From contig NC_006396.1 of assembly GCF_000011085.1 (NCBI RefSeq), positions 2,728,001 through 2,792,000 on the forward strand: DNA of 64,000 nucleotides, in the 5' to 3' direction. Shown here in pieces: positions 27,704 to 28,103 of the stretch. The translations under genes and the position numbers were made by a program. Under the pieces are notes generated by a model. It saw only the letters and a program-made list of their open reading frames with translations, was not told the DNA's origin and searched no databases. Origin of the DNA: Haloarcula marismortui ATCC 43049 (GTDB lineage: Archaea > Halobacteriota > Halobacteria > Halobacteriales > Haloarculaceae). Each line of letters starts with the position of its first letter. Position 1 is the first letter of the stretch.

Positions 27704-27869
27704 TCAGGACGGATGCTGGTGGCTGAGTTTTTCTGCCACCACGCCCGGAACAGGGACGCCGCAGTCACCACACGTCCATGACCGGTCGGTCCCGCCCCCG
27801 CTCCAGCGTCAGGTCCTGCTTGAACCGCAGCGTCGCACCGCACTCACACTGGTAGGTCGTTTCGCTCAT
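27704..27869 (-). pseudogene. Small zinc-ribbon gene with a frameshift
   Basis: From ATG at 27869 the frame reads MSETTYQCECGATLRFKQDL and on to RGRDRPVMDVW before TGA. In the other frame the same DNA continues DRSWTCGDCGVPVPGVVAEK and ends LSHQHPS. Joined, they would make a 53-residue protein with two zinc knuckles (CECG and CGDC). The break coincides with a tandem GACCGACC; deleting one GACC restores one frame of 54 codons including the stop. The gene is therefore probably inactivated by a 4-bp duplication, or the sequence has an error there. Confidence 0.6.
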
Positions 27870-27937
27870 ATCTCGACATACGTGGTGTCCCGGCAAATTC
27901 GCCGGGGTCAGTGACCATGACAGGTCGTGTCAAAGAG

Positions 27938-27944
27938 TAATATA
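27938..27944 (+). promoter_or_regulatory. TATA box of the zinc-ribbon micro-protein gene
   Basis: TAATATA lies 22-28 bases upstream of the ATG at 27966, consistent with a leaderless transcript and supporting that this tiny gene is real. Confidence 0.5.
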
Positions 27945-27965
27945 GTGTGCTCACGAACACTACAT

Positions 27966-28103
27966 ATGGTCCAGCGAACACCGCCCGCGGAAGACCAGAA
28001 CAGCCTCATCTGCCGGAAGTGTGACTACTCGACAGGTGTACTCCGCCCGTCCTGTCCGGAGTGTGGCGGCGATATGGTGTATGCGCCAGAACCCAGCGAA
28101 TAG
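27966..28103 (+). CDS. Zinc-ribbon micro-protein
   Basis: A 45-residue protein, MVQRTPPAEDQNSLICRKCD at the start, with a four-cysteine zinc ribbon: CRKC, then CPECGGDM ten residues later. A TATA box (TAATATA) sits at the right distance. It is placed between eif6 and rpl18a, so it may act on ribosomes or RNA, though no function is known. A strong hairpin follows the stop by about 25 bases. Confidence 0.72.
   Translation: MVQRTPPAEDQNSLICRKCDYSTGVLRPSCPECGGDMVYAPEPSE

Follow-up and report, generated by a model that had tools for sequence, protein, structure and literature searches.

In the 64,000-nucleotide stretch of Haloarcula marismortui ATCC 43049 DNA analysed here (the window), a conserved haloarchaeal gene for a four-cysteine mini-protein has probably been broken recently. 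We name this family of 54-residue proteins ZR54. The frame of the window copy is best read as broken by a single surplus G in a short run of this base, rather than by a duplication of GACC. With modest confidence, we consider the break to be a real loss and rank this explanation above an error in the deposited sequence. The original prediction had described two half-frames of a small cysteine protein on the minus strand, together with a GACCGACC tandem. Coordinates, strand and tandem are all borne out. A recent pseudogene and a sequencing error were among the readings offered at that time, and these two are the ones that remain live after our analysis.

The layout of the broken gene is given in Table 1. 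A profile built from 10 congeneric proteins matched the Haloarcula marismortui genome in two pieces lying in different frames, with profile positions 1-25 at 27795-27869 and positions 24-54 at 27707-27799. Besides these two halves, the profile search (E <= 0.001) found no second ZR54 copy in the genome. Upstream of the gene, the AT-rich stretch CACTATATTAnTCTTTGACACG is nearly invariant across 11 aligned sequences, that of the window among them.

Table 1. Features of the frameshifted ZR54 gene in the window.
Feature	Positions	Strand	Remarks
ZR54 copy, frameshifted, of the 54-aa Cys4 family	27704..27869	-	166 nt; 54 codons and a stop would take 165
First half, open from ATG 27869	27765..27869	-	34 codons and a stop; holds the first Cys pair (CECG) alone
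Second half, profile positions 24-54	27707..27799	-	second Cys pair CGDCG; other frame
G run	27795..27799	-	GGGGG versus GGGG in the closest relatives; the frameshifting difference, from alignment
GACCGACC tandem	27784..27791	-	3' of the G run; not the lesion; substitutions versus relatives
Upstream region common to ZR54 and the divergent small Cys gene	27870..27965	not assigned	

According to the favoured reading, the extra G, at about codon 24, would be present in the living cell as a real mutation, probably produced by polymerase slippage in the G run. It would shift the frame so that translation ends after 34 codons, leaving off the second Cys pair. In the frame of the second half, translation reveals no start codon (ATG, GTG or TTG) from the preceding stop up to its Cys pair. 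A product with a single Cys pair should be unable to form a four-cysteine metal site, so that a null allele is expected.

The nature of the lesion was deduced from relatives. Pairwise alignment with the genes of two congeners, G005 and G047, gives a single inserted base and no further gap (GCTGGAGCGGGGGCGGG here, GCTGGAGCGGGGCGGG there). The multiple alignment shows the same extra base against those relatives that it holds on this strand. In all 59 related loci examined (24 from the genus, 21 named and 14 from the order, several genomes falling in two of these sets), 22 residues separate the two Cys pairs. If the G run is shortened by one base, 54 residues are obtained and the spacing is 22. 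The original prediction attributed the break to a 4-bp duplication, removal of one GACC giving a clean frame of 54 codons. Leaving out these four bases does open the frame, which speaks for a duplication; the resulting protein has 53 residues, not 54, with 21 residues between the Cys pairs. Moreover, the alignment puts the extra base upstream of the tandem, and GACCGACC is present in none of the 24 congeneric genes. Close relatives have ACC AGC/AGT CGG at the tandem site and the window has ACC GAC CGG. GACCGACC is thus a product of substitutions. A GACC duplication is thus a highly improbable lesion. Four-base tandems are commonplace in the window and not commoner than chance (295, versus a mean of 332 and a range of 292-401 in 30 single-base shuffles). 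A hairpin that might confuse sequencing was not found at the site, where the local DNA folds no better than shuffles (z of 0.46 for the window and -0.26 for a relative). Finally, a 33-base stretch of the site has no exact match in viral contigs.

The gene was then compared across the genus, as had been suggested. Among 32 congeneric genomes, 25 gave a match: 24 have an uninterrupted frame and Haloarcula marismortui alone is split. The seven genomes without a match include three incomplete assemblies. The shifted frame is therefore common to no relative, and the view that a conserved zinc-ribbon-type mini-gene is frameshifted here is upheld. The intact protein has 54 residues in 18 of the 24 loci, the other six matching from profile position 3 or 4; the small Cys4 protein first described stands, with a length of 54 rather than the 53 residues claimed. 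In the order, 120 of 293 sampled genomes match ZR54, Haloarcula marismortui included and again alone in being in two pieces; the absences in this search are soft, as it scored a limited number of candidates per genome. An internal TGA is observed in a more distant match of the order (G048, E 3e-9) and also in a weak one (G079, E 4e-4). Several genomes, such as G115, G195, G170, G194, G074 and G289, match only partially.

These comparisons bear on two further explanations. Programmed ribosomal frameshifting might join the two halves, and the sequence of both is indeed conserved in Haloarcula marismortui. However, the shifted arrangement occurs in no congener, all 24 genes being uninterrupted, so there is no conserved recoding site and we give this mechanism almost no credit. 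The second explanation, also put forward in the original prediction, is a phase-variable contingency gene, with the G run or the GACC tandem acting as a switch by slippage. The difference does amount to one unit of a short G run with a tandem nearby. Yet neither repeat is conserved among homologues: the tandem is missing from every congeneric gene, and, across the whole gene, G runs reach at most 3-4 bases in 23 of 24 congeners and 5 in the other. The codons at the site also vary (CGG GGC, CGC GGT, CGT GGC). This variation and the unconserved tract lengths indicate that selection maintains no tract. A run of five is also short by the standards of contingency tracts. It is thus very unlikely that slippage turns this small Cys4 protein on and off and that cells with and cells without ZR54 coexist in a population; if true, it would be a case of haloarchaeal phase variation in a micro-protein encoded beside the L39e-L31e-eIF6 genes.

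The substitution pattern tells how recent the break may be. For pN/pS, the window copy was read in the family register. The ratio ranges from 0.13 to 0.33 against 14 relatives and overlaps that of nearest-neighbour pairs of intact genes (0.03-0.30), so that relaxed constraint after inactivation is not seen. Versus the closest relative, G005, we counted 11 synonymous and 5 nonsynonymous changes (ratio 0.15). All four cysteines are retained and the last 16 residues are identical to those of G005. Constraint, cysteines and upstream region being kept, the break is either very recent or an error. From these sequence comparisons, the gene would have been maintained until very recently, or may still be. 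Third positions hold 11 of the 16 changes in the whole gene versus G005, and these changes therefore look like in-frame evolution rather than random miscalls.

A cluster of substitutions is observed just 3' of the insertion, in codons 28-40 (27749-27787, minus strand). It contains 12 of the 16 differences from G005, in 39 bases. Twelve differences in these codons are reached by none of 91 pairs of intact genes, and eight by nine of the 91. Between G000 and G005, equally dense 13-codon stretches are rare (851 of 147,991); yet 71 of 463 genes hold one somewhere.

In 22 of the 24 congeneric loci, the genes for L39e, L31e and eIF6 are followed by ZR54 on the opposite strand. In the remaining two, ZR54 lies beside LX. 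Outside the genus (L052 and L057-L079), none of the tested eIF6 neighbours was found within about 1.5 kb of ZR54 in 14 of 14 order loci and in 10 of 21 named loci. The eIF6 locus was recovered in six of the seven congeners without a match, one incomplete genome giving no eIF6. In five of them (L141-L145), ZR54 gave no match and the small Cys gene that comes next lies directly after eIF6, the matched ends being 108-187 bp apart. The same interval measures 271-348 bp in the 20 ZR54-bearing loci with both flanks matched. In the sixth, L140, no tested gene follows eIF6. The short interval suggests a clean loss of ZR54 in these five congeners, or a gain in the others. As five congeners lack ZR54 at its customary position next to eIF6, the gene seems to be of a dispensable kind, and its loss would be tolerated.

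The main competitor of a real mutation is an error of sequencing or assembly. In that case, the cell would have an intact 54-codon gene and the deposited G run would be one G too long. We regard this as a serious possibility, though the less probable of the two. The split is unique to Haloarcula marismortui among the 25 congeners with a match, the site is a homopolymer, where a surplus G is a well-known type of sequencing error, and continued constraint elsewhere in the gene is just what would be expected from an error. These three observations fit an error equally well.

A baseline was obtained by comparing 800 kb of the Haloarcula marismortui genome with 800 kb from each of G005 and G047. 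Genes were called coding-like when third positions held a share of at least 0.55 of the changes, and we counted those intact in both other genomes. With G005 as a reference, 452 coding-like genes (451 kb) are intact in Haloarcula marismortui, 5 are partial and 2 are flagged as frameshifted. With G047, the corresponding numbers are 428 (423 kb), 3 and 3. ZR54 is flagged in both sets. The other flagged frames, frame 14 of G005 and frames 162 and 902 of G047, were judged from their translations alone to be spurious or 5' over-extended (Arg/Ser-rich, or with the shift ahead of a later plausible start). On the same reading of translations, we judged that, in some 450 kb of conserved coding DNA, ZR54 is the sole true gene body with a frameshift. 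Applied to the two congeners, this procedure flagged 0 and 2 frames in G005 (6 and 5 partial) and 4 and 6 frames in G047 (12 and 7 partial). Over the 800 kb compared, the Haloarcula marismortui assembly thus has no excess of frameshifts over the two congeners. If there are no other events, frameshift errors are bounded at about 6.6e-6 per base (95%), which amounts to about 0.1% over the length of ZR54; the baseline is blind to frameshifts in the outer 8% or so at each end of a gene and to genes not common to the three genomes. Hence the local error rate looks low, as we judged no other frameshift to affect a true gene in about 450 genes (450 kb). A real frameshift is also likelier to survive in a gene of the dispensable kind. 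These two arguments favour a real mutation over an error. The genome of Haloarcula marismortui ATCC 43049 was reportedly determined from shotgun Sanger reads around 2004. During these comparisons, we observed that a membrane-protein-like frame of 306 residues (L109, G005:C6 about 196041-196954) is frameshifted in G005, where one base is missing in a G run; this frame is whole in G000 and G047.

Homopolymer corrections were needed in another resequenced halophile, Halomonas elongata. In the available part of that report, 72 corrections in unique regions are described, 48 of them indels, 37 of which lie in polynucleotide runs, and three corrections concern a C/G run with one base in excess (PMC5552945). 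These errors resemble the present case in being one-base homopolymer indels in an otherwise sound gene. In contrast, the older Halomonas elongata genome was 454-sequenced (PMC5552945), and the region studied here has no frameshift excess over two congeners. Disrupted genes of haloarchaeal genomes have been surveyed, with Haloarcula marismortui among the curated genomes; the accessible text of this survey does not mention the ZR54 locus (PMC4500146). No title on this locus was found among the literature matches listed.

When three ZR54 proteins were compared with Pfam and NCBIfam, no model reached its cut-off, and PHROG gave no match for one ZR54 protein. Five structure models have pLDDT values of 56.6-71.7, the best one (71.7) having a pTM of 0.49. 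A fold search of the PDB with this middling model returned no match at E <= 0.001; the top rows are NAC-like, with E above 1. Homology with ribosomal protein L34e was considered and rejected, the best profile match to a solved chain having a non-significant E of 0.083. With no family model and no significant fold match, the term zinc ribbon rests on the cysteine pattern, the four cysteines being invariant in 21 of 21 ZR54 proteins. From this pattern, we infer that ZR54 may bind zinc.

The nearest functional class is that of the C(P)XCG zinc-finger micro-proteins, which are also haloarchaeal, under 70 residues and equipped with two Cys pairs. The first pair of ZR54, CxCG, fits the motif, whereas the second, CxxC, lacks the P and is followed by a G that is not strictly conserved. 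A family of the order, f4, matches ZR54 only partially (E about 1e-3); our guess is that f4 may be the Haloferax C(P)XCG family. These micro-proteins have been studied in Haloferax volcanii (see also PMC10716476). As reported in the consulted portions of these studies, 16 of 16 chosen genes could be deleted, 12 of the 16 mutants having a condition-dependent phenotype (PMC6562870), and some of the proteins bind zinc while others do not (PMC11241148). By analogy, loss of a ZR54-type gene without obvious harm is plausible.

The event itself is nothing more unusual than a recent gene loss or a slip in sequencing. Its main value is one of correction: a conserved gene is best read as having one extra G, not a GACC duplication. 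The still unnamed family to which we refer as ZR54 deserves a name, given its 120 matching genomes in the order sample. Should the lesion be real, the strain would be a natural knockout for a small Cys4 protein, encoded next to eIF6 and ribosomal genes in most of the Haloarcula relatives examined.

A second small Cys gene diverges from ZR54 at 27966-28103 (plus strand). With ATG 27966 as the start, its product would have 45 residues; it contains two Cys pairs, CRKC and CPECG. This gene is unnamed and has only sub-cut-off matches to zinc ribbons. It is present at 22 of the 24 congeneric ZR54 loci.
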